This document shows, in pieces, positions 49,314-60,293 of a stretch of 60,568 bases of DNA; position 1 is the first letter of the stretch; each line of letters starts with the position of its first letter. The notes beneath the pieces were generated by a model, which saw only the letters and a program-made list of their open reading frames with translations, had not been told where the DNA came from and ran no database searches. The stretch covers positions 1 through 60,568 of the forward strand of contig JADGBN010000003.1 in NCBI GenBank assembly GCA_015231435.1. The letters are read 5' to 3'. The position numbers and the translations under genes are program-made. Origin of the DNA: Gammaproteobacteria bacterium. GTDB lineage: Bacteria > Pseudomonadota > Gammaproteobacteria > Thiohalomonadales > Thiohalomonadaceae.

Positions 49314-49329
49314 TGGCATGAATTTTGTA
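49314..49329 (+). promoter_or_regulatory. Sigma54-like promoter TGGCATGAATTTTGTA upstream of the S/Se cluster
   Basis: Resembles TGGCACG-N4-TTGCW with correct spacing; the -12 element has GT instead of GC; 35 nt before the first ATG. Confidence 0.45.
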
Positions 49330-49363: not shown

Positions 49364-49732
49364 ATGCCCGGTCTTTGTCAGTATTGGTTCGGACGCAGAA
49401 AAAACCACCTGCATCGCCAAAAGCTTTGCAGCCAGGTTAGTGAGAAAGTGATCCTGCCAGGTTTGGGTAGCGTGGTGATTAAGTATCGTATCTCCTGCGT
49501 AGGTGAAAGTTGCCCAAAACCGCAGCTGCTTACGTTGAAGGTATTCGAAGAGAGTGAAGTCGGGAGTGTGATTGAGATCATCACCGACAATGTGTCTGTG
49601 GTTGAGACGATTCCAGCCATGATGGAGGTGTTCGGCGGGCATTATCTCGCGACGACCAGAGATGAAATGGGCTGGCATCTCTATCTCTGTAAAGAACAAC
49701 AAACAGTTTCTAGTCTGGGAGTAAAACAGTAG
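49364..49732 (+). CDS. TusA/SirA-family sulfur-carrier-like protein with N-terminal extension
   Basis: GGAGGA ribosome site; SCVGESCPKPQLLTLKVFEESEVGSVIEIITDN has the CPxP motif. Confidence 0.75.
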   Translation: MPGLCQYWFGRRKNHLHRQKLCSQVSEKVILPGLGSVVIKYRISCVGESCPKPQLLTLKVFEESEVGSVIEIITDNVSVVETIPAMMEVFGGHYLATTRDEMGWHLYLCKEQQTVSSLGVKQ

Positions 49733-51175
49733 ATGAGTAACACGATAAGTTTTGGTGCACCCCAACGTATGCTGGCGCATCGTGGAGGTTATACCGCGAT
49801 TGGGCTGGGCATAGCCATTGCAGTGATTTCAGCGGTGATGTTGCTCAAGGATACACGCTGGATCTATTTGCTGGTCTACGTTTGGTTCGGCGTGGTTTAC
49901 GGACTTTTTCTGCAGTATGGCCGATTTTGCATGGCGTCGGCAGTGCGTGATCTGTTTGCTGTTAATGTGCCTCGTATGGCTGTCGGTGTGATGATTGCGA
50001 CCGCACTGTTTTCAATCATCGCTGGCCTGGTCACTGTCTCTGGTTACAGTACTTTTCATCCTCATCCCTTCGGCTGGCACATTATTATCGGTGGCCTCGT
50101 TTTTGGCTTTGGTATTGTGTTCACCGGTGGCTGTGCTTCAGGTTCGCTTTACAAAAGCGGTGAGGGAAACATCGGTTCGATGCTGGTACTGGTCAGTATC
50201 TCCTTCTCCCAGGCACCGTTCGCTGACCTCGGCAGCTGGTCGAACAGATTCGTGCCGGAAAGCTGGACCGCCTCTGCCCTTGAAAAGGGGATGCCGGAAG
50301 AGCTCTCTGTGACCGCTGGCTGGTTTGACCAGTTCATTACCGGCGACATTTGGGATCTTTCTGGTGGCACCGTTGGTCAGGCATTGAATAGTGGCAATAT
50401 CTGGTTCGACACATTTGTTGGTAATACGCTGCTTGGTGCCATTCTGCCAACGCTGGTGCTGTTGGCAATTCTCTATTCTGTCACCTATCGTAAGGGGTAT
50501 CTGCGTCGGAATAAACTGGTGGCCCCCGCCTTCGCTGATCATCTGCGTGGTTTCTGGGCGATGATGACCGCTTCAAAAAATACCGCCATTGCTGGCCTTG
50601 GTCTGGGTGTCTTCGCTGGTCTGCATATGTGGGCGACCGGTGCTCTGCGTGAACATTATCAAATATTCAACTTTGGTGAGCTCCTCACCAGTATGGGGTT
50701 TAACGAAGGTCTCTCTATTCAGCAGACGGTGTTTGATCCGGGTTATTGGTATATCACCACTCAAGAGGCGCAACTCGGTGCTTGGGTGATGGATGGAATG
50801 GGCCGTGATGTGATGGATAACGTTTTTTTCGGTCTGGAGAATGGCATTCCCAATCCACTGATTAACGCCCCACTGCTGATGTCCCTGGGCATCATTGTTG
50901 GCGCAGCAATTCTTGCCCTCATCCGTCACGAGTTTAAATGGAAGGTGCCGAATCTCGAGACCGCAACCTTTGCTCTGGTTGGTGGTGCTCTGATGGGTAT
51001 TGGTGCACGACTTGGTATGGGCTGTAACGTTGGTGCCTTCTTTGCAGCGGTCACCAATGGCGATCTGACTGGGTGGATATTCCTTGCCGGGATGGTGCTT
51101 GGTGGTTTGCTGGGAGTGAAAGCCTTTGCTTTGTGGATGGATAGAAAGAGCAAGGGTGACGAATTCGATTTCTGA
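49733..51175 (+). CDS. YeeE/YedE family thiosulfate/sulfur-compound transporter
   Basis: 480 aa polytopic; YGRFCMASAVRDLF, GGLVFGFGIVFTGGCASGSLYKSGEG, GGALMGIGARLGMGCNVGAFFAAVTNGDLTGWIF. Confidence 0.92.
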   Translation: MSNTISFGAPQRMLAHRGGYTAIGLGIAIAVISAVMLLKDTRWIYLLVYVWFGVVYGLFLQYGRFCMASAVRDLFAVNVPRMAVGVMIATALFSIIAGLVTVSGYSTFHPHPFGWHIIIGGLVFGFGIVFTGGCASGSLYKSGEGNIGSMLVLVSISFSQAPFADLGSWSNRFVPESWTASALEKGMPEELSVTAGWFDQFITGDIWDLSGGTVGQALNSGNIWFDTFVGNTLLGAILPTLVLLAILYSVTYRKGYLRRNKLVAPAFADHLRGFWAMMTASKNTAIAGLGLGVFAGLHMWATGALREHYQIFNFGELLTSMGFNEGLSIQQTVFDPGYWYITTQEAQLGAWVMDGMGRDVMDNVFFGLENGIPNPLINAPLLMSLGIIVGAAILALIRHEFKWKVPNLETATFALVGGALMGIGARLGMGCNVGAFFAAVTNGDLTGWIFLAGMVLGGLLGVKAFALWMDRKSKGDEFDF

Positions 51176-51232
51176 ACCCGTATGCAGCGTTAAATTAAAC
51201 GATTAATCATAGTGAAAGTGGAGGGTCTGAAA

Positions 51233-51484
51233 ATGGCAATAAAATTTGGAAAAATTTCTGATGGTGAATACGAACTTGATGTGAAAGGTTACGTCTGTCC
51301 GCACCCGCAGATGTATACCAAAAAGGCGATGCAGAAGCTTGATAGTGGCGATGTATTGCACCTGAACTTCGATAACCCCTCATCGGGTGAGTCGATCATC
51401 GCCATGATGGAGAGCGAGGGTAATGAGCTGTTCGAGCGTCTGGACAGTAATGGTTCTTTCTACTGGAAGATTCGTAAGGGGTGA
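51233..51484 (+). CDS. TusA-family sulfurtransferase
   Basis: YELDVKGYVCPHPQMYTKKAMQKLDSGDVLHLNFDNPSS; CPxP motif. Confidence 0.88.
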   Translation: MAIKFGKISDGEYELDVKGYVCPHPQMYTKKAMQKLDSGDVLHLNFDNPSSGESIIAMMESEGNELFERLDSNGSFYWKIRKG

Positions 51485-51486
51485 AC

Positions 51487-51795
51487 ATGAGGCTGGGCAT
51501 TGTAGTTACTGATATCAATCAGGCTGCGCAGGCGCAGTGCGTGGTGAAAGAGGCATTGGCCTATGGTTGGAGTTTGCGCTGCTTCCTGACCGAGAATGGT
51601 GTCAATATGCTCAAGGACGATAGTTTTATCGGGCTGGCACGAAATCATGGACTGCATCTGTCGGTGTGTGAGCACTCTGTTGCACGATATTGTCATGAAC
51701 TGCCGCTGCAGGAGATAAGCGATGTCGTTATCGTTGGCGGTCAATATCAGGATGCGGAACTGGTACGTCACAGTGATCGTGTGCTGGTCTTCTAG
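51487..51795 (+). CDS. DsrE-like protein
   Basis: MRLGIVVTDINQAAQAQCVVKEALAYGWSLRCFLTENGVNML; DsrE/F fold pattern. Confidence 0.7.
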   Translation: MRLGIVVTDINQAAQAQCVVKEALAYGWSLRCFLTENGVNMLKDDSFIGLARNHGLHLSVCEHSVARYCHELPLQEISDVVIVGGQYQDAELVRHSDRVLVF

Positions 51796-51808: not shown

Positions 51809-52069
51809 GTGAGTGATGAAATGAAGAGTGTCTTAATGGTAGCACGCAACAAAAAAGTCGAAGCGTTGCGGATGGCTACGGGTCTTACCCTGCTGGACGA
51901 TCAGATCAGTGTGGCGGTTATTGGTGGTATCGACCGTACTGATCCCGAAGTTGAACTGCAGTTGGAGTCTCTTGATTTCGCCGAAGTTGCCGTCGTTGAA
52001 ATCGACAGGGACAAGGCAACGGAGTTTGCAGAGATGATCATCAATTCTGATGTGGTATATGTGGTATGA
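51809..52069 (+). CDS. DsrE/DsrF-like small protein lacking Cys
   Basis: 86 aa; KSVLMVARNKKVEALRMATGLTLLDDQISVAVIGG; GTG start. Confidence 0.6.
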   Translation: MSDEMKSVLMVARNKKVEALRMATGLTLLDDQISVAVIGGIDRTDPEVELQLESLDFAEVAVVEIDRDKATEFAEMIINSDVVYVV

Positions 52070-52260
52070 GTGAAAAGAGTGTTCGACTTTATGTGGTGGG
52101 CAGTGGTGATGCCGAGCTGCAGTCGCTGATCAAACAGGGATTGTTAGCACTGGGGAAGGGGTGCCATGAGAGTGCTGTATCAGAGAACTGTGTCGAGTTG
52201 CTTGACACTCTCTCGCAGGACGAGATTCCTATCATTATTAAACCGTATAACGCTGCGTAA
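52066..52260 (+). CDS. Small DsrH/TusB-like or uncharacterised protein
   Basis: 64 aa; RLYVVGSGDAELQSLIKQGLLALGKGCHESAVSENC; ATGA overlap with the preceding gene. Confidence 0.5.
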   Translation: MSEKSVRLYVVGSGDAELQSLIKQGLLALGKGCHESAVSENCVELLDTLSQDEIPIIIKPYNAA

Positions 52261-52359: not shown

Positions 52360-53853
52360 ATGATAAAACCGAAAATGACGTATTCAGGCAAAGGTTCGTT
52401 AATAGGCCTGTTGGGCATGTCAGCACTGCTACTTGCTGGCTGCTCTGGTACAGAGGATAGTGACTCGCCAGTGGTCATTCCGCCAGTGGAAATTGGCGGA
52501 GTAACGCTGCCTGCCATGAATAAGCCAGCTGACATTGCATCAGTCTCGGCCGATGATTATAACCAGAATACCTATGGATTAATTACAGGTACGACACTTG
52601 TGAATTGGGTGACGGACTGGCCGAATAACAAGCCAGCGGGTATTGAGGGTAAGTTAGTGATTCTGCAGGCTGGTAGTGGTGAGGCTGATGCCGAATACAT
52701 CGCACCGGATAATGTCAATGTATTTACTTATGCGGTAGAGAGTAGTGAATGGGTTGAAACAAGGTCAAATGGGGTTGTGGTGACAAAAAGTTTGGTTCCA
52801 AGCGGCCCCAAAATGGATACCTTCCTAGAAAAGTACAACATTGATACGAATAAGGATATGGTCGTTTGTGCCATGGGGACCGCCGGCTCCAGCCAGGCAA
52901 TGAGTGCGGGACGTTGCTGGTACATGTTCCGCTACTGGGGTGTGCCCAAAGGACGTCTCGCGGTTCTCAATGGTGGTAATGCGTGGAATGTCGCCAATAA
53001 CGCTCTCCCGGTGAGCAAAATGGCGAGTACACCGCCGTATACCGGCACCGCCTCGGTAAGGGACTTGCCGCAACTGAATTTTGCGTTGCAAGCGACACTG
53101 GAGGACATGATGGCGGCAGTAGCCAGTACGGATAGCAATATTCTTGGTGATGGCATTTTTATCTGGGATGCCCGCAGCACCAATCAGTACGATCCCGTCA
53201 GTAATGGCGTTGATGATGGGGATGATGACTTCCAGTCAGGTGCGGTACAAGGGCATCCTAATGGGGCTCTGCAGCTTAATTTTGCCAGTTTGCTTAATAG
53301 TAGTGAAGGTTACACTTACAAGTCGAAGGCCGATTTAGCCGCTTATCTGAATGGTGATGTGGTCGATGGTGCTTCATTTGTCGATGGCTCTTTGCAAGGT
53401 GTGGGATCTGGCATGGCATACCAGGAGGGCGATACGATTTACACCTATTGTGAAACCACCTTCCGGGCCATGATTACCGGCTTCACCACGGCCGCCATTC
53501 TCGGCAAACCCACCCGTTTTTATGATGGCGCTATGACAGAATGGCACTCACTCACCTCAAGATATGATTCGAATGGCGAGCTGCTTTTACCGACAGATTC
53601 GCCCTGGCGTACAGATGACGTCAACCGCAGTTATAGCTTTGATAAGAGTGTGCCGGTAGAACCGCCTGCAAACTCAGAAGCATCCGGCTATATCGTAGAC
53701 CCCTATAGCAAGACTGCACACCGGCTTATCCTCGAAGATTACGAGTACAAGACGGGGACGAGCATCGACACGAGCAGTAGTGAGAGCAGTGGCAAAGAGA
53801 GTAACGCCAGCACAAGTAATGGTAGCGCTCCGGTTGCCAACGGCTGCGGTTAA
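52360..53853 (+). CDS. Tandem-rhodanese-like lipoprotein
   Basis: 497 aa; lipobox LLAGC; candidate active-site Cys in VVCAMGTAGSSQAMSAGR and YTYCETTFRAMITGF; FIWDARSTNQYD; Ser-rich tail ending NGCG; GGAGGA ribosome site. Confidence 0.85.
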   Translation: MIKPKMTYSGKGSLIGLLGMSALLLAGCSGTEDSDSPVVIPPVEIGGVTLPAMNKPADIASVSADDYNQNTYGLITGTTLVNWVTDWPNNKPAGIEGKLVILQAGSGEADAEYIAPDNVNVFTYAVESSEWVETRSNGVVVTKSLVPSGPKMDTFLEKYNIDTNKDMVVCAMGTAGSSQAMSAGRCWYMFRYWGVPKGRLAVLNGGNAWNVANNALPVSKMASTPPYTGTASVRDLPQLNFALQATLEDMMAAVASTDSNILGDGIFIWDARSTNQYDPVSNGVDDGDDDFQSGAVQGHPNGALQLNFASLLNSSEGYTYKSKADLAAYLNGDVVDGASFVDGSLQGVGSGMAYQEGDTIYTYCETTFRAMITGFTTAAILGKPTRFYDGAMTEWHSLTSRYDSNGELLLPTDSPWRTDDVNRSYSFDKSVPVEPPANSEASGYIVDPYSKTAHRLILEDYEYKTGTSIDTSSSESSGKESNASTSNGSAPVANGCG

Positions 53854-53878: not shown

Positions 53879-53898
53879 GGGCGGCCTGCGGGCCGCCC
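53879..53898 (+). terminator. GC-rich hairpin after the rhodanese lipoprotein gene
   Basis: GGGCGGCC-TGCG-GGCCGCCC followed by GCTTTATC (weak T-tract). Confidence 0.5.
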
Positions 53899-53987: not shown

Positions 53988-55193
53988 TTGAAATACCTAG
54001 TTGTATCGGGGCTGACCGTTGTTACCCTGTTTATCTACATCTTGTGGCACCACCCGAAAGCAGAACTCTCTGTCGCTGAGTTTCTTGAGCAGCACTGGCG
54101 TTATCCCTTGGAGGCGCAGGGCACACCGCCCGAGACCTTGAATGTATTAGAGGCTTCTCTCGCGCCGGAGTCATGTGGCGTTTGCCATACTGAACAATAT
54201 CGCCTGTGGAGTGAAAGCCACCACAGCCATACGATGGGTTCAGGGATCCTCTGGCAGTTGCAGATGATGGATGCGAAACATTCCCGGGAGTGTCTAAAAT
54301 GCCACGCGCCATTGACCGAGCAGTTTGCACTGCTGGCACAGGAACGTGGTTGGAGCCGTACCTCCGATAAACCGCCTGACTATATACCTATGGATCTGCA
54401 TCTGAAGGGGCTTGTCTGTGCTGCATGTCATCTACGCCAGCATCAACGCTTTGGTCCGCCAGCGAGCAAAACCGAGGTGAATAGAGAGATACACGGTGGT
54501 TTTATTGAGCACAAGGCATTTTCTGACAGTCTCTTTTGTGCTACCTGCCATCAGTTTCCCGAGGATGGCCCGCGCCTAAATGGCAAGTTGCGTGAGGATA
54601 CCTATAATCAGTGGCGTGTCAGCCGCTATGGCGAGGAAGGAAAAGAGTGCCAGAGTTGTCACATGCCGCAACTGCGTCATGAGTGGAAGGGGATACATGA
54701 CGAGCAGATGACTCGGTCGGCGATGAGTGTGGTTATCGAAACCTTGCCTGAGAGCGAAGATGGCCTGAGGGTATTGGCACGGGTGACTAATAGTGGCGCA
54801 GGTCATCACCTGCCCACCTACCTAGTACCTGAGTTGGAGCTGTTGCTCGAGCTGGTGTCGCCAATCGGTTCGGTGCGCGAGTTGGCACGGCATACGCTTG
54901 CATGGCGGGCAGATCTGGCGTTGGCGAGAGAGGCGTTCGATCAGCGACTACCTGCTGGAGAGAGTGTGACATTAGACGGACTGGCTACGCAGCAAGATGG
55001 TGTGGTACGTCTGAGGGTGAAAGTCTCGCCGCGCCACCAATATCTTGTCACCTTCATCGATTATCTGCAAAACAACCGTAAAAATCTCAATCCCACAACC
55101 CGTAAGCTGCTGGTGCAGGCTATTCAGGAAGCGAGGGCTGCGGAGTACGAGTTTATTGCGGCAGAGTACCCGTTGGCAGGGATTGCAAATTGA
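53988..55193 (+). CDS. Multiheme c-type cytochrome, 5 CXXCH
   Basis: 401 aa, TTG start; N-terminal TM; CGVCH, CLKCH, CAACH, CATCH, CQSCH; C-terminal domain with NSGAGHHLPT. Confidence 0.92.
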   Translation: MKYLVVSGLTVVTLFIYILWHHPKAELSVAEFLEQHWRYPLEAQGTPPETLNVLEASLAPESCGVCHTEQYRLWSESHHSHTMGSGILWQLQMMDAKHSRECLKCHAPLTEQFALLAQERGWSRTSDKPPDYIPMDLHLKGLVCAACHLRQHQRFGPPASKTEVNREIHGGFIEHKAFSDSLFCATCHQFPEDGPRLNGKLREDTYNQWRVSRYGEEGKECQSCHMPQLRHEWKGIHDEQMTRSAMSVVIETLPESEDGLRVLARVTNSGAGHHLPTYLVPELELLLELVSPIGSVRELARHTLAWRADLALAREAFDQRLPAGESVTLDGLATQQDGVVRLRVKVSPRHQYLVTFIDYLQNNRKNLNPTTRKLLVQAIQEARAAEYEFIAAEYPLAGIAN

Positions 55194-55280: not shown

Positions 55281-55296
55281 TGGCATGACATGTGCA
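55281..55296 (+). promoter_or_regulatory. Sigma54 promoter candidate TGGCATGACATGTGCA
   Basis: GG-N10-GC spacing; differs from TGGCACGN4TTGCA at two positions; 34 nt before the small CXC protein gene. Confidence 0.6.
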
Positions 55297-55329: not shown

Positions 55330-55614
55330 ATGAAAGCTCGTCTACTGGGTTTAATAATGACAGGTGTGATGATCGTAAATGTGAATTTGGTGATTGCTGC
55401 CAATGAAACGGCTGACGACAACATTATCGTCAATGGTTCAAGTCGATTGAAATTCAAAAAGGGACCGGTCTGTATGTGTAACCATGGGTTGACCGAGCGT
55501 GACATCCTGTTAGCGCAGGGTTCTAAAGGGAATAGACCGATAAAGGAAGTTTTTTCCTGGAGTAATTCAACTGAAAATAACCAAGAGGTAGAAAGGAGGA
55601 AGAATGCAAAGTAA
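55330..55614 (+). CDS. Small exported protein with CMC motif, unknown function
   Basis: 94 aa; signal peptide MKARLLGLIMTGVMIVNVNLVIAA; KKGPVCMCNHGLTERDILLAQGSKGN; 11-nt overlap with the next gene. Confidence 0.7.
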   Translation: MKARLLGLIMTGVMIVNVNLVIAANETADDNIIVNGSSRLKFKKGPVCMCNHGLTERDILLAQGSKGNRPIKEVFSWSNSTENNQEVERRKNAK

Positions 55615-56089
55615 TCAAAAACGTCAAAGCAAGCGCAGCCGTTATAGTTTATGGTTGTCGCTGTTAGTCGCCCCGGTAGTGATGCTTGCCTGGGGAATCT
55701 ATGCCAGTTATGTCATGATGAACGGCGTTCCTGGCGGTGAAGATGGTAGCTGGAGTGCCAATGTCCTGGCGGAAATTCACGAGGGGATAGTCACCGCTTC
55801 TCCAATCGGAATCGCCAATGCATGTGGACTTGGGGCATCGTCCTGTTTTAAGTGTCACAACGGCACACGTGCCGCCTTGGCTGCCCCAAAGCCATGGCAT
55901 ACCGAGCATGAAAAGGTCAATCACTCCTGTGTAGGCTGTCACGATGGTAACGAACGCCTCATGTTGAAGGAGATGGCTCACAAGGAGTTGGTCGGTAATC
56001 CGATACTTACACCTGAGAAGTACTGCATGAATTGCCACAAAGATGCCGATATGCAGACACTGGTCGGCAAATATCAGAGCGCGATGTAA
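55604..56089 (+). CDS. Membrane-anchored triheme c-type cytochrome
   Basis: 161 aa; N-terminal TM LWLSLLVAPVVMLAWGIYASYV; CFKCH, CVGCH, CMNCH. Confidence 0.9.
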   Translation: MQSNQKRQSKRSRYSLWLSLLVAPVVMLAWGIYASYVMMNGVPGGEDGSWSANVLAEIHEGIVTASPIGIANACGLGASSCFKCHNGTRAALAAPKPWHTEHEKVNHSCVGCHDGNERLMLKEMAHKELVGNPILTPEKYCMNCHKDADMQTLVGKYQSAM

Positions 56090-56104: not shown

Positions 56105-57277
56105 ATGAATACTGAATTGAACACAAAGAGAGGCAAACTGCTAACCGCGACCCTGATAGCGTTGGCCGGTGCAGGCGTGCAGCAGGCTGTCGCTGGACCG
56201 GAGTTTCAGGTTGGTGAACAGGGCTCTATGCAGATCACCTATGCTCTGCAGATGATGATGGAAAAAAAGGAGTACACCTCAGCTAATGACGATGGTGACT
56301 CCTTTGACACATTTTTGCGGCGTAATCGCGTGACCTTTAGCGGCCAATATAATGATTACATCGGTTTCTACGCCCAATTTGAAGCCGGTAATGATAGTAA
56401 AAACGGCAATGACGATCGTGGTGTCTACTACCGTGATGCCTACCTTACTCTCGATAAGAGTGATGCGGTGCGCTTTATCGCCGGTCGTTATAAAAATACT
56501 TTCAGTCGGGAGAATCTTGAGGCGTGTCTTGAACCGTTGACAATGGATCGTAGCAGCCTGCTCGCCTACTCCCCATACGGTGCCAGCCGCGATACCGGTG
56601 TGACCATGTGGGGGAATCTCCTCGATGCGAAACTTCAGTACCGTATTGGGGTTAACGATGGCCGTGAAGGTGAAGCGGTGGTTAAGGATAATCCTCGGAT
56701 TACTGGTCGTGTCCACGCCAGTCTCATCGATCCTGAGTACAACTATGGCTACCGGGGTACCTATCTCGGAACCCAAACTGTTCTGACCATTGGTGCGGCG
56801 GTAGATATGCAGAAGGATATTGCCTACGACGACAACAGTACACGCACAGGTTCGAAGGATTATCGGGCAACGACCTATGATATTTTCTATGAGCAACCAT
56901 TCTCTTTCGGCACCGTGACAACCTCTGCGGCGGTGTTTGACTATAGTCTTGATGGCTATGCCATTATTGCTGATCCGACGCTTTCACCTTATACCGAGCG
57001 TGAGGGTAACTACCTTAAAATGGGTTACATGTTGCCGAATCCGGTGGGGCAAGGTCGACTGCAACTCTTTGCCCGCAATGAGCAAGTCGAGTACGATGAA
57101 GGGACAGGGCTTTCCAATCGCAGTCTGACCGCCCTGGGTGCACACTACTACATTAATGGGCAGTCACTCAAAGTGAGTCTGGAGCACGCCAGTCACGGGT
57201 TCGATATAGAGAATGATTCTGATGCATCGCTACAGGATCATAAGCAGACTACGCTTAGCCTGCAGATGATCTTCTAG
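56105..57277 (+). CDS. Outer-membrane porin (phosphate-selective porin O/P-like)
   Basis: 390 aa; signal peptide; FDTFLRRNRVTFSGQYNDYIGFYAQFEAGNDS..., YRDAYLTLDKSDAVRFIAGRYKNTFSREN; C-terminal Phe (LSLQMIF). Confidence 0.88.
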   Translation: MNTELNTKRGKLLTATLIALAGAGVQQAVAGPEFQVGEQGSMQITYALQMMMEKKEYTSANDDGDSFDTFLRRNRVTFSGQYNDYIGFYAQFEAGNDSKNGNDDRGVYYRDAYLTLDKSDAVRFIAGRYKNTFSRENLEACLEPLTMDRSSLLAYSPYGASRDTGVTMWGNLLDAKLQYRIGVNDGREGEAVVKDNPRITGRVHASLIDPEYNYGYRGTYLGTQTVLTIGAAVDMQKDIAYDDNSTRTGSKDYRATTYDIFYEQPFSFGTVTTSAAVFDYSLDGYAIIADPTLSPYTEREGNYLKMGYMLPNPVGQGRLQLFARNEQVEYDEGTGLSNRSLTALGAHYYINGQSLKVSLEHASHGFDIENDSDASLQDHKQTTLSLQMIF

Positions 57278-57469: not shown

Positions 57470-58894
57470 ATGCTGTTTAGTTCTAACTCTCTTGCGAGAG
57501 TCTCTCTCTATTTAGCCGCTGTGGCGCTTGTCACAGCGGCTTTGTTTTTTATTGTTTTCGTGCAGCGGTCCCACTCTGCGATTTCTTACATTTTATTCAT
57601 TGCCATTATGGTGATTTTTGGCCTTGGTGCCTATCTGCTGCTGCAACGTAAAACCATTGTGCATTTGCATGAGGCGATTCTCGATGCTCAGGAGGGAACG
57701 CTCTCCAATGTGATGCGGACAGGCATCTGTGTTGGCGGATTGGAGTCTCTCATTGAGGACTACAATTGCATGATGAACAAACTCAGTGTCATGTTTTTGA
57801 TGGTGGAAGAGTGTCAGAAACGGGTGGTGAATGAGAGAAATATCATGGACACACTGCTTGGCAGCATGCCAGGTGCGCTACTGTCAGTCGACAATGATCT
57901 GAATATCACCAACATCAACCAGCAGGCGGCCGAACTATTTAAGTGCGGACGCGACGGTCTATTGGGGAAAATGTTATTCGATATTATCAAACTTGATCAG
58001 AGTGACCATGATGCTTTGCGGGATGCATTCCTCTACAAGGATCCGGTGAAAAACTACGTCATTCGTACCGTGATTGCAGAATTCGATTGCTATATTTCGA
58101 TTAACATCGGTTTTTACTCTGAATCTGAATCGGATGTTGATGCGGTCATCACCCTGCAGGACATTACCGATTACCAACAACTGATTGATGCTGTTTATGA
58201 TAGGGAAAAACTGGTGGCGATGGGGCAGATGGCAGCAGGAATCGCTCATGAACTCAATACGCCGCTGGGGAATATTATCGGTTATACCCAACTGCTTGAT
58301 GACCCCAATCTTGACGCTGAGAAAACAGTCCGTTACAAAGAGTACATTATCGATGAGGCGCGCCGCTGTTCGCGGATCGTTAGTGACCTGCTAAAGTACG
58401 CACGGCGTAACAATTGCAGTACAGAGGTTTGCGACGCAAATGCGCTCATTCGTGATCTGGTTGACTCCTTCCTTGCTTGCCGCTTGCGTAAGCAAAACAC
58501 CGTGATAGAACTCGTTTTTAACGAGGGTGTGTCACAGGTAGAGGTGCCCTGTGGAGAGCTTGATATCGCCTTGTCGAATCTGTTGCTCAATTCGCTGCAG
58601 GTGCTGGCGGGACGTGATGATGGGGTTATCCGTGTTACAATTAATGCTCATGGTGCCAAGATGGTGGAGATCGCCGTTGAGGACAATGGTCCAGGCATCA
58701 AGGCTATCGATCGTCGCCGCATCTTCGAACCTTTTTTTACGACCAAAGAGGCGGGCGAGGGGACCGGACTTGGACTACCTATCAGCAAGGCAATGCTCGA
58801 CCGACGCGGTGCCAGCCTTGTGCTCGATAGCAGTTACACCAAAGGAGCACGTTTTGTTATTACCCTGCGTGTGGCGATGAGCAATGATGAGTGA
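57470..58894 (+). CDS. PAS sensor histidine kinase with two N-terminal TM helices
   Basis: 474 aa; AAGIAHELNTPLGNIIGYTQLL (HisKA), AVEDNGPGIKAIDRRRIFEPFFTTKEAGEGTGLGLPIS (HATPase). Confidence 0.93.
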   Translation: MLFSSNSLARVSLYLAAVALVTAALFFIVFVQRSHSAISYILFIAIMVIFGLGAYLLLQRKTIVHLHEAILDAQEGTLSNVMRTGICVGGLESLIEDYNCMMNKLSVMFLMVEECQKRVVNERNIMDTLLGSMPGALLSVDNDLNITNINQQAAELFKCGRDGLLGKMLFDIIKLDQSDHDALRDAFLYKDPVKNYVIRTVIAEFDCYISINIGFYSESESDVDAVITLQDITDYQQLIDAVYDREKLVAMGQMAAGIAHELNTPLGNIIGYTQLLDDPNLDAEKTVRYKEYIIDEARRCSRIVSDLLKYARRNNCSTEVCDANALIRDLVDSFLACRLRKQNTVIELVFNEGVSQVEVPCGELDIALSNLLLNSLQVLAGRDDGVIRVTINAHGAKMVEIAVEDNGPGIKAIDRRRIFEPFFTTKEAGEGTGLGLPISKAMLDRRGASLVLDSSYTKGARFVITLRVAMSNDE

Positions 58895-60293
58895 AGAGAT
58901 GAATCTTGAGGCCGAGAATGAACCGCAACAGGTAATGCAGATCATCATTGCCGAGGATGACGTGCGTATGCGCGAACTGATTACAACGCTAATCAGTGGT
59001 CTCGATGCAGAAGTTATACCCGCTGACACCTCACAGCACGCTTTGGATCTAATTGAAGCGGGTGAGAATGTCGCAGTGGTGCTCACCGATTTAAGAATGC
59101 CGTCAGTAGATGGTATCGATGTGGTGCGTTTTGCACGTCGCGTTAATCCACGTACCCAAGTGGTGATGATAACTGGTCATGGCACCGTCGAATCGGCTGT
59201 AGAGGCGCTTAAGGCAGGTGCTGTAGATTATGTGCGCAAACCATTCGACAACGTTGAACTGGTGCATACGGTCAAGCGTGCACTCGAACACTATTGTTTG
59301 AGCATCGAGAATGAGCAGTTACGCCGTCGCCAGCTCGATGATGTGTCAGGGAAATATCAGCTGTTGTTTGGCCGTTCTCAAGAGATGGGCCGAGTGCAAA
59401 AGCTGATTAAGGCTGCAGCGGGATACGATTGTAATGTGCTCATCACGGGTGAGAGCGGTTGTGGAAAGGAGCTGGTGGCGCGGCGGATTCATGATCTCAG
59501 TAACCGTCATGACGCCTCTTTCATCGTGATCAATTGTGCGGCAATACCCGAGACGGTTATCGAAAGTGAACTGTTTGGATATGTGAAGGGTGCTTTTACC
59601 GGTGCAGATCGCAACAAGGCAGGCCTACTTGAGCGCGCTAATGGCGGTTCGCTGTTCCTTGATGAAGTGAATAACGCCTCGTTGTCGCTGCAGGCGAAAC
59701 TGTTGCGGGTGTTGCAAGATGGTAGCTACTATAGTATCGGTAACACCGAACTAAAGCAGGTTGATTTGCGAATCATCGCAGCCAGTAACCGAGATCTGCA
59801 GACGATGATTGAAGCTGGCGACTTTCGCCAAGATCTCTACTATCGTCTCAAGGTAATTGATATTGATCTGCCGCCACTACGGGTTCGGCGTCAGGATATC
59901 CCCTTACTCGCCAACTTTTTCCTTGCACGTCACGCAGGTCGCCTTGGAAAGACACTCACCGGTATTTCCACCAAAACGCTTGGGGCGTTGATGCGACATG
60001 ATTGGCCTGGGAATGTGCGTGAATTGGAGAACGTGATTCTGCGTATGGCGATTATGGAGACAGGTGATCGTATCGGCGAGGAGGTGCTGCCGAAAGAGTT
60101 GGCTGAGTCCTCGGCAGGCAAGGTGCGTAGTTTAGATGTCATGGCACCGCAGAGCCTGGAGGAGGTAGAGGCCTATTTTATCCGTAAAACCTTACGAGAA
60201 CACAGCGACGATCGCACACTGACGGCAGAGATTCTTGGCATAGACAAATCTACCTTGTGGCGCAAAATGAAGCGTTATGGCATCCAGTCATAA
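58884..60293 (+). CDS. NtrC-family sigma54-dependent response regulator
   Basis: 469 aa; receiver IIAEDDVRMRELI...VVLTDLRMPS; AAA+ GESGCGKELVARRIH, ELFGYVKGAFTGADRNKAG; C-terminal Fis-type HTH LTAEILGIDKSTLWRKMKRYG. Confidence 0.95.
   Translation: MMSEEMNLEAENEPQQVMQIIIAEDDVRMRELITTLISGLDAEVIPADTSQHALDLIEAGENVAVVLTDLRMPSVDGIDVVRFARRVNPRTQVVMITGHGTVESAVEALKAGAVDYVRKPFDNVELVHTVKRALEHYCLSIENEQLRRRQLDDVSGKYQLLFGRSQEMGRVQKLIKAAAGYDCNVLITGESGCGKELVARRIHDLSNRHDASFIVINCAAIPETVIESELFGYVKGAFTGADRNKAGLLERANGGSLFLDEVNNASLSLQAKLLRVLQDGSYYSIGNTELKQVDLRIIAASNRDLQTMIEAGDFRQDLYYRLKVIDIDLPPLRVRRQDIPLLANFFLARHAGRLGKTLTGISTKTLGALMRHDWPGNVRELENVILRMAIMETGDRIGEEVLPKELAESSAGKVRSLDVMAPQSLEEVEAYFIRKTLREHSDDRTLTAEILGIDKSTLWRKMKRYGIQS

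Follow-up and report, generated by a model that had tools for sequence, protein, structure and literature searches.

What does a lipoprotein built from two rhodanese-like halves do with a Ser-rich tail that ends in a Cys, and to which pathway does it belong? An open reading frame in the 60,568 nucleotides of gammaproteobacterial DNA analyzed here (contig JADGBN010000003.1 from a member of the Thiohalomonadaceae; hereafter the window) raises this question. A preliminary description had read the product as a tandem-rhodanese lipoprotein with a candidate active-site Cys in each half and a terminal Cys that might act as an acceptor or tether. We found that the protein is a variant of the ExtH kind, encoded in a regulon with the genes of a YTD/DsrEFH sulfur relay, and that such a regulon is undescribed in the literature searched. 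The preliminary description did not include this context, namely the relationship to ExtH and ExtI, the genes of the sulfur relay, and the regulon under sigma-54.

The gene begins with an ATG preceded by GGAGGA and codes for 497 amino acids. In the lipobox LLAGC the lipidated residue is C28 and the residue at +2 is a Ser, so the product lacks the Asp for retention in the inner membrane. Residues 13-451 match positions 9-409 of the 430 in the NCBIfam model for ExtH (NF040901), homology that extends over the whole model. However, the score of 135.8 bits is below the curated equivalog cut-off of 200 bits, and the same holds for ten homologues with scores from 93.7 to 129.9 bits. We accordingly set aside the assignment of these proteins as true ExtH orthologues. 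Pfam recognized a rhodanese domain (PF00581, residues 266-397) in the second half only, with 26 bits against a cut-off of 22.2. AF2 models built on shallow alignments were of low confidence, with a mean pLDDT of 46.8 at full length and 54.3 when trimmed to the core. Searched with Foldseek against the PDB, these low-confidence models had tandem rhodaneses of the TST/MST/SseA type as all of their top matches. Together, the ExtH model, the Pfam match in the second half, and the Foldseek matches point to a predicted tandem-rhodanese fold, though the details of the AF2 models are not usable.

To see which cysteines are kept, we compared 24 distinct gammaproteobacterial homologues, including the window protein, gathered from whole-genome searches and a scan of genome contigs. 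Every one of the 24, down to an identity of 36%, has C28, C364, and C496. In alignment with the rhodanese 1uar, C364, found in the stretch YCETTFRAM, falls in the active-site loop; it belongs to the consensus C-x-T-T-[FY]-R, consistent with a catalytic position. The lipid anchor, the tandem-rhodanese fold, and the active-site Cys of the second half thus agree with what the preliminary description proposed, while its candidate in the N-half, C170 (VVCAMGTAGSSQ), did not hold up. That residue is a Cys in only 15 of the 24 homologues and a V, F, A, or W in the other nine. In every row of the alignment C170 and C186 are either both Cys or neither is, and the tree requires about five changes of the pair. 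Given its non-conservation and its co-variation with C186, we rejected C170 as a second active-site Cys. Because the two co-vary in a disulfide pattern, a second active site in the N-half is improbable, and a structural disulfide between C170 and C186 is the likelier reading of the alignment. Such a disulfide would fit a degenerate, non-catalytic N-domain, which is usual in tandem rhodaneses.

The gene lies in a conserved cluster of 13 genes, known here from sulfur-oxidizing bacteria, with the order tusA-yedE-tusA-dsrE/F/(H)-like-extH-pentaheme-C-M-C-triheme-extI-histidine kinase-sigma-54 activator (Table 1). Other loci keep this order over as much of the cluster as their contigs include, and a Thiohalomonas MAG is among the carriers of the cluster. 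Wherever a contig spans the region, the extH-like gene is found between yedE-tusA-dsrE/F and the pentaheme, triheme, extI, histidine kinase, and response regulator genes. The DsrE/F/H-like labels were given for position and size beside yedE-tusA, following the layout of YTD/DsrEFH type II clusters (PMC13293266), rather than from a Pfam or other family match. Several of the encoded proteins have conserved cysteines of their own. The active-site C63 of the first TusA is invariant (23 of 23), and YedE has C66 and C134 in 22 of 23 relatives and C431 in all 23. ExtI retains C141 in each of 22 relatives; an invariant Cys is unusual for an outer-membrane barrel. The C-M-C protein (55330-55614) had no family match and possibly stands in place of ExtJ. 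ExtH and an ExtI over its cut-off are encoded in the identical 9 of 369 genomes of the class and in the identical 11 of the 56 relatives' genomes. No plasmid homologues of the ExtH-like protein were found. Just 3' of the extH stop, still within the cluster, is a perfect GC-rich hairpin (GGGCGGCC-TGCG-GGCCGCCC, positions 53879-53898), a possible attenuator or mRNA-stabilizing stem.

Table 1. Features of the extH-like gene and its cluster, by position in the window.
Feature	Positions	Strand	Basis
Degenerate sigma-54 -24/-12-like site TGGCATGAATTTTGTA	49314..49329	+	About 35 bp 5' of the tusA1 ATG at 49364; consensus sites there in 18/22 relatives
TusA-like sulfurtransferase 1	49364..49732	+	Pfam TusA 7.1e-11; ATG with SD GGAGGAAG
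YedE/YeeE-family sulfur transporter	49733..51175	+	Pfam Sulf_transp 4.6e-45
TusA-like sulfurtransferase 2	51212..51484	+	Pfam TusA 1.3e-15; C29 invariant 23/23
DsrE-like small protein	51481..51795	+	Position and size; C34 and C63 invariant 23/23
DsrF-like small protein	51809..52069	+	Position and size; conserved in 22 relatives
DsrH-like small protein	52066..52260	+	4 bp overlap with dsrF-like gene; similarity found in 8 relatives
ExtH-like tandem-rhodanese lipoprotein gene	52360..53853	+	NCBIfam NF040901 135.8 bits, 2.1e-39
C28 codon, lipidated Cys of LLAGC	52441..52443	+	Kept in 24/24 distinct homologues
C170 codon, N-half Cys, probable disulfide partner of C186	52867..52869	+	Co-variation with C186
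C186 codon	52915..52917	+	Co-variation with C170
C364 codon, Cys at predicted catalytic position of C-domain loop	53449..53451	+	24/24; aligned to 1uar loop
Ser/Gly/Asn/Thr-rich flexible linker	53752..53841	+	16-31 residues, 82% GSTNDAP on average in homologues
Arm tip (C496 codon 53845-53847)	53842..53850	+	C496 in 24/24
Periplasmic pentaheme cytochrome c, ExtKL-like	53988..55193	+	5 CXXCH; NCBIfam ExtKL 41.4 bits, below cut-off 250
Sigma-54 -24/-12 site TGGCATGACATGTGCA before C-M-C gene	55281..55296	+	Same place in 14/21 relatives
Small exported protein with C-M-C motif	55330..55614	+	C48 and C50 in 22/22
Membrane-anchored triheme cytochrome	55604..56089	+	Extra invariant Cys C74, 23/23
ExtI outer-membrane porin	56105..57277	+	NCBIfam NF040900 324.9 bits, above cut-off 150
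PAS histidine kinase	57470..58894	+	Pfam HisKA, HATPase_c, PAS
NtrC-type sigma-54 response regulator	58884..60293	+	Pfam Response_reg, Sigma54_activat, HTH_8

By its Pfam domains, the product of the last gene in the cluster is an NtrC-type sigma-54 activator. We looked before each cluster gene for the sigma-54 pattern TGGCAY-N7-GCW, for which the opposite strand gave an expectation of about 0.011 per gene. The pattern is present before tusA1 in 18 of 22 loci, before extH in 10 of 23, and before the C-M-C gene in 14 of 21. The other ten genes have zero or one match each. In Acidithiobacillus, sulfur genes are under sigma-54 two-component systems (PMC6335251).

The genome of the window codes for a DsrA over the cut-off and for SoxYZ. 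Its dsr operon has dsrA, B, E, F, H, C, M, K, L, and further genes, with the dsr and sox names beyond dsrA and soxY given from gene order and sequence appearance. As the genome encodes the reverse-Dsr pathway and soxYZ, and a Thiohalomonas denitrificans MAG belongs to the same family, sulfur oxidation is the most likely way of life of the host. The host SoxY (L099 378-848, minus strand) has the C-terminus ...VVAGGC, without the usual final Gly-Gly. In G045, the relay part of the cluster is present (L023) with no DsrA over the cut-off; there the relay must have another endpoint, and reverse Dsr is thus not always where it ends.

Since the cluster links an intracellular sulfur relay with a channel in the outer membrane and with cytochromes, the ExtH-like protein probably helps the cell to take up sulfur atoms from outside. 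Its relationship to ExtH, and an ExtI over the curated cut-off, would also fit selenite or tellurite reduction as in Geobacter, with ExtI admitting the oxyanion, ExtH and the cytochromes reducing or binding it, and the TusA and YedE-like genes serving selenium. In G. sulfurreducens, ExtI affects both selenite and tellurite reduction, as the phenotype of an extI deletion indicates (PMC5877670), and the YedE of the cluster is closest to the selenium-metabolism YedE/FdhT model, though far below the cut-off. Against this, neither the ExtH of the window nor any of the ten homologues tested reaches the equivalog cut-off, the ExtKL-like protein is also below its cut-off with a reading frame free of a selenocysteine-type interruption, and the cluster has no ExtM-S genes. 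The DsrE-like genes and the reverse-Dsr and Sox proteins of the host point to sulfur instead, and we consider a role in oxyanion reduction unlikely.

The Geobacter extHIJKL cluster also contributes to metal reduction (PMC6148476), as would be expected were the cluster an electron conduit. In that case electrons would run through the cytochromes and an ExtI complex to sulfur or metal outside the cell, and ExtH would bind sulfur at the surface as part of a reductase. The five- and three-heme cytochromes are kept in every locus covering them, but the cluster lacks an outer-surface cytochrome and the host belongs to a family of sulfur oxidizers, which leaves the conduit a doubtful explanation. Given that ExtI and extHIJKL act in selenite, tellurite, and metal reduction in Geobacter, the ancestral role of the ExtH cluster may nonetheless be reductive.

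The tail of the protein runs from the end of a helix with a conserved D-x-x-Y-K through the linker to the terminal Cys. Most homologues have the tip N-P-C-G-G; that of the window protein reads N-G-C-G. Within the tail the Cys is the sole invariant residue, while the linker varies freely in length and sequence. Among the other proteins of the clusters, 11 of 279 have a Cys in their last four residues. As a rough control, 2 of 29 generic tandem rhodaneses have one in the last five, with several of these loci misread. The conservation of C496 is consistent with the strong selection expected of an acceptor or tether, in line with the suspicion first raised about this residue.

Because the NCBIfam ExtH model ends where the linker begins, the tail appears, by comparison with that model, to be specific to the sulfur-linked form of ExtH. 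The homologue in L031, for example, matches model positions 16-430, and the last of the 430 falls immediately ahead of the linker. The reported mass of 49.0 kDa for Geobacter ExtH (PMC5877670) leaves little room for a tail beyond the model. In the form of its sequence alone, the tail with its invariant Cys resembles the arm of SoxY, and a Pfam scan of the ExtH-like protein gave no match to the SoxY domain. In the Sox system, the Cys on the C-terminal arm of SoxY is the sulfur carrier. The invariant extra cysteines of ExtI (C141), the triheme cytochrome (C74), and the C-M-C protein would suit a tether, with C496 in a stable disulfide to one of these partners that holds a complex together and carries no sulfur, but an arm that is rich in Gly, variable in length, and tipped with -C-G-G has the form known from SoxY, whose Cys carries sulfur, and this makes a tether improbable.

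We favor sulfur uptake, with the ExtH-like protein as an outer-membrane lipoprotein sulfurtransferase at the entry point of sulfane-sulfur acquisition, feeding YedE-TusA-DsrEFH; taken whole, the case for this reading is evenly balanced. Polysulfide, elemental sulfur, or similar zero-valent sulfur would reach the protein at the ExtI porin or by passage through that porin. C364 of the second rhodanese domain would accept the sulfur as a persulfide, with the first domain being structural. The persulfide would then move from C364 to C496 at the tip of the flexible Gly/Ser arm. Like the C-terminal Cys arm of SoxY, this arm would swing and present the sulfur to an acceptor, for which the Cys-lined YedE transporter is the most likely candidate. 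The YeeE-like SoxT1A is thought to accept sulfur from SoxY by way of channel cysteines (PMC11582611). Once in the cytoplasm, the sulfur would be passed by TusA and the DsrE/F/H-like proteins to DsrC and on to the reverse-Dsr pathway. A relay of persulfide to DsrC is the published role of DsrEFH type II (PMC13293266). The pentaheme and triheme cytochromes may trade the electrons needed for, or released by, the opening of S-S bonds, and the histidine kinase and sigma-54 activator of the cluster would turn it on. A soluble carrier may be missing from this model, as the arm of an outer-membrane lipoprotein must reach its acceptor across the periplasm.

Only tentatively do we extend the uptake model to a trans-envelope importer of solid or polymeric zero-valent sulfur. 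In such an importer, a tandem rhodanese of the outer membrane, bearing a persulfide arm like that of SoxY, would work with the porin and the multiheme cytochromes and hand on covalently bound sulfur from the cell exterior to YedE-TusA-DsrEFH and reverse Dsr. To our knowledge, the mechanism by which insoluble or polymeric zero-valent sulfur passes the outer membrane is not settled. The substrate specificity of yeeE-tusA-dsrEFH was proposed in the DsrEFH type II study to lie in the uptake system (PMC13293266), and the conserved cluster is a candidate for the missing uptake part of that relay. With a single invariant Cys at the end of the protein, the uptake idea is directly testable by one point mutation.

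Like the extHIJKL(MNOPQS) cluster of G. sulfurreducens (GSU2940 onward), the window encodes a rhodanese-family lipoprotein beside an ExtI porin and a pentaheme cytochrome. Measured against the ExtH model, the window protein is below the equivalog cut-off and has a linker and terminal Cys past the end of the model. The tusA, yedE, and dsrE-like genes and a sigma-54 two-component system replace ExtM-S and the LysR-type regulator of Geobacter, and the ExtKL-like gene lacks a selenocysteine-type interruption and reaches 41.4 bits where the cut-off is 250. The YTD, or yeeE-tusA-dsrEFH type II, clusters of Desulfobacterota and cable bacteria likewise have yedE, tusA, and three small DsrE/F/H-like genes adjacent to one another. 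The window cluster differs in being gammaproteobacterial, in having an oxidative-type dsr operon in its host and a second tusA, and in sharing one regulon with ExtH, ExtI, and cytochromes. Our literature search of open-access papers found none joining ExtH/ExtI to the YTD genes.

Tandem rhodaneses of the SseA/TST type (1uar, 3hzu) also have two rhodanese folds and an active-site Cys in the second, set in a six-residue loop. In contrast, the window protein is predicted to be exported and lipidated, its loop, C-x-T-T-[FY]-R, is without a Gly, and it has large insertions and a C-terminal Cys arm. SoxY, likewise a protein of the periplasmic side, has a reactive Cys on a C-terminal, Gly-containing arm, to which the tail of the window protein corresponds in sequence form, whereas the window protein has neither a SoxY domain nor a SoxZ partner and bears its arm, with a long linker, on a tandem-rhodanese lipoprotein. 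Closest in its suggested import logic is Desulfurivibrio dismutans, for which the available part of a published description suggests that extracellular polysulfide is imported by lipoprotein sulfurtransferases (RS12800/RS05165) and a porin (RS05170) beside YeeE/YedE (PMC12142623). Relative to that part of the description, to which the likeness is drawn, the terminal-Cys arm and the linked cytochromes are features particular to the window (PMC12142623).
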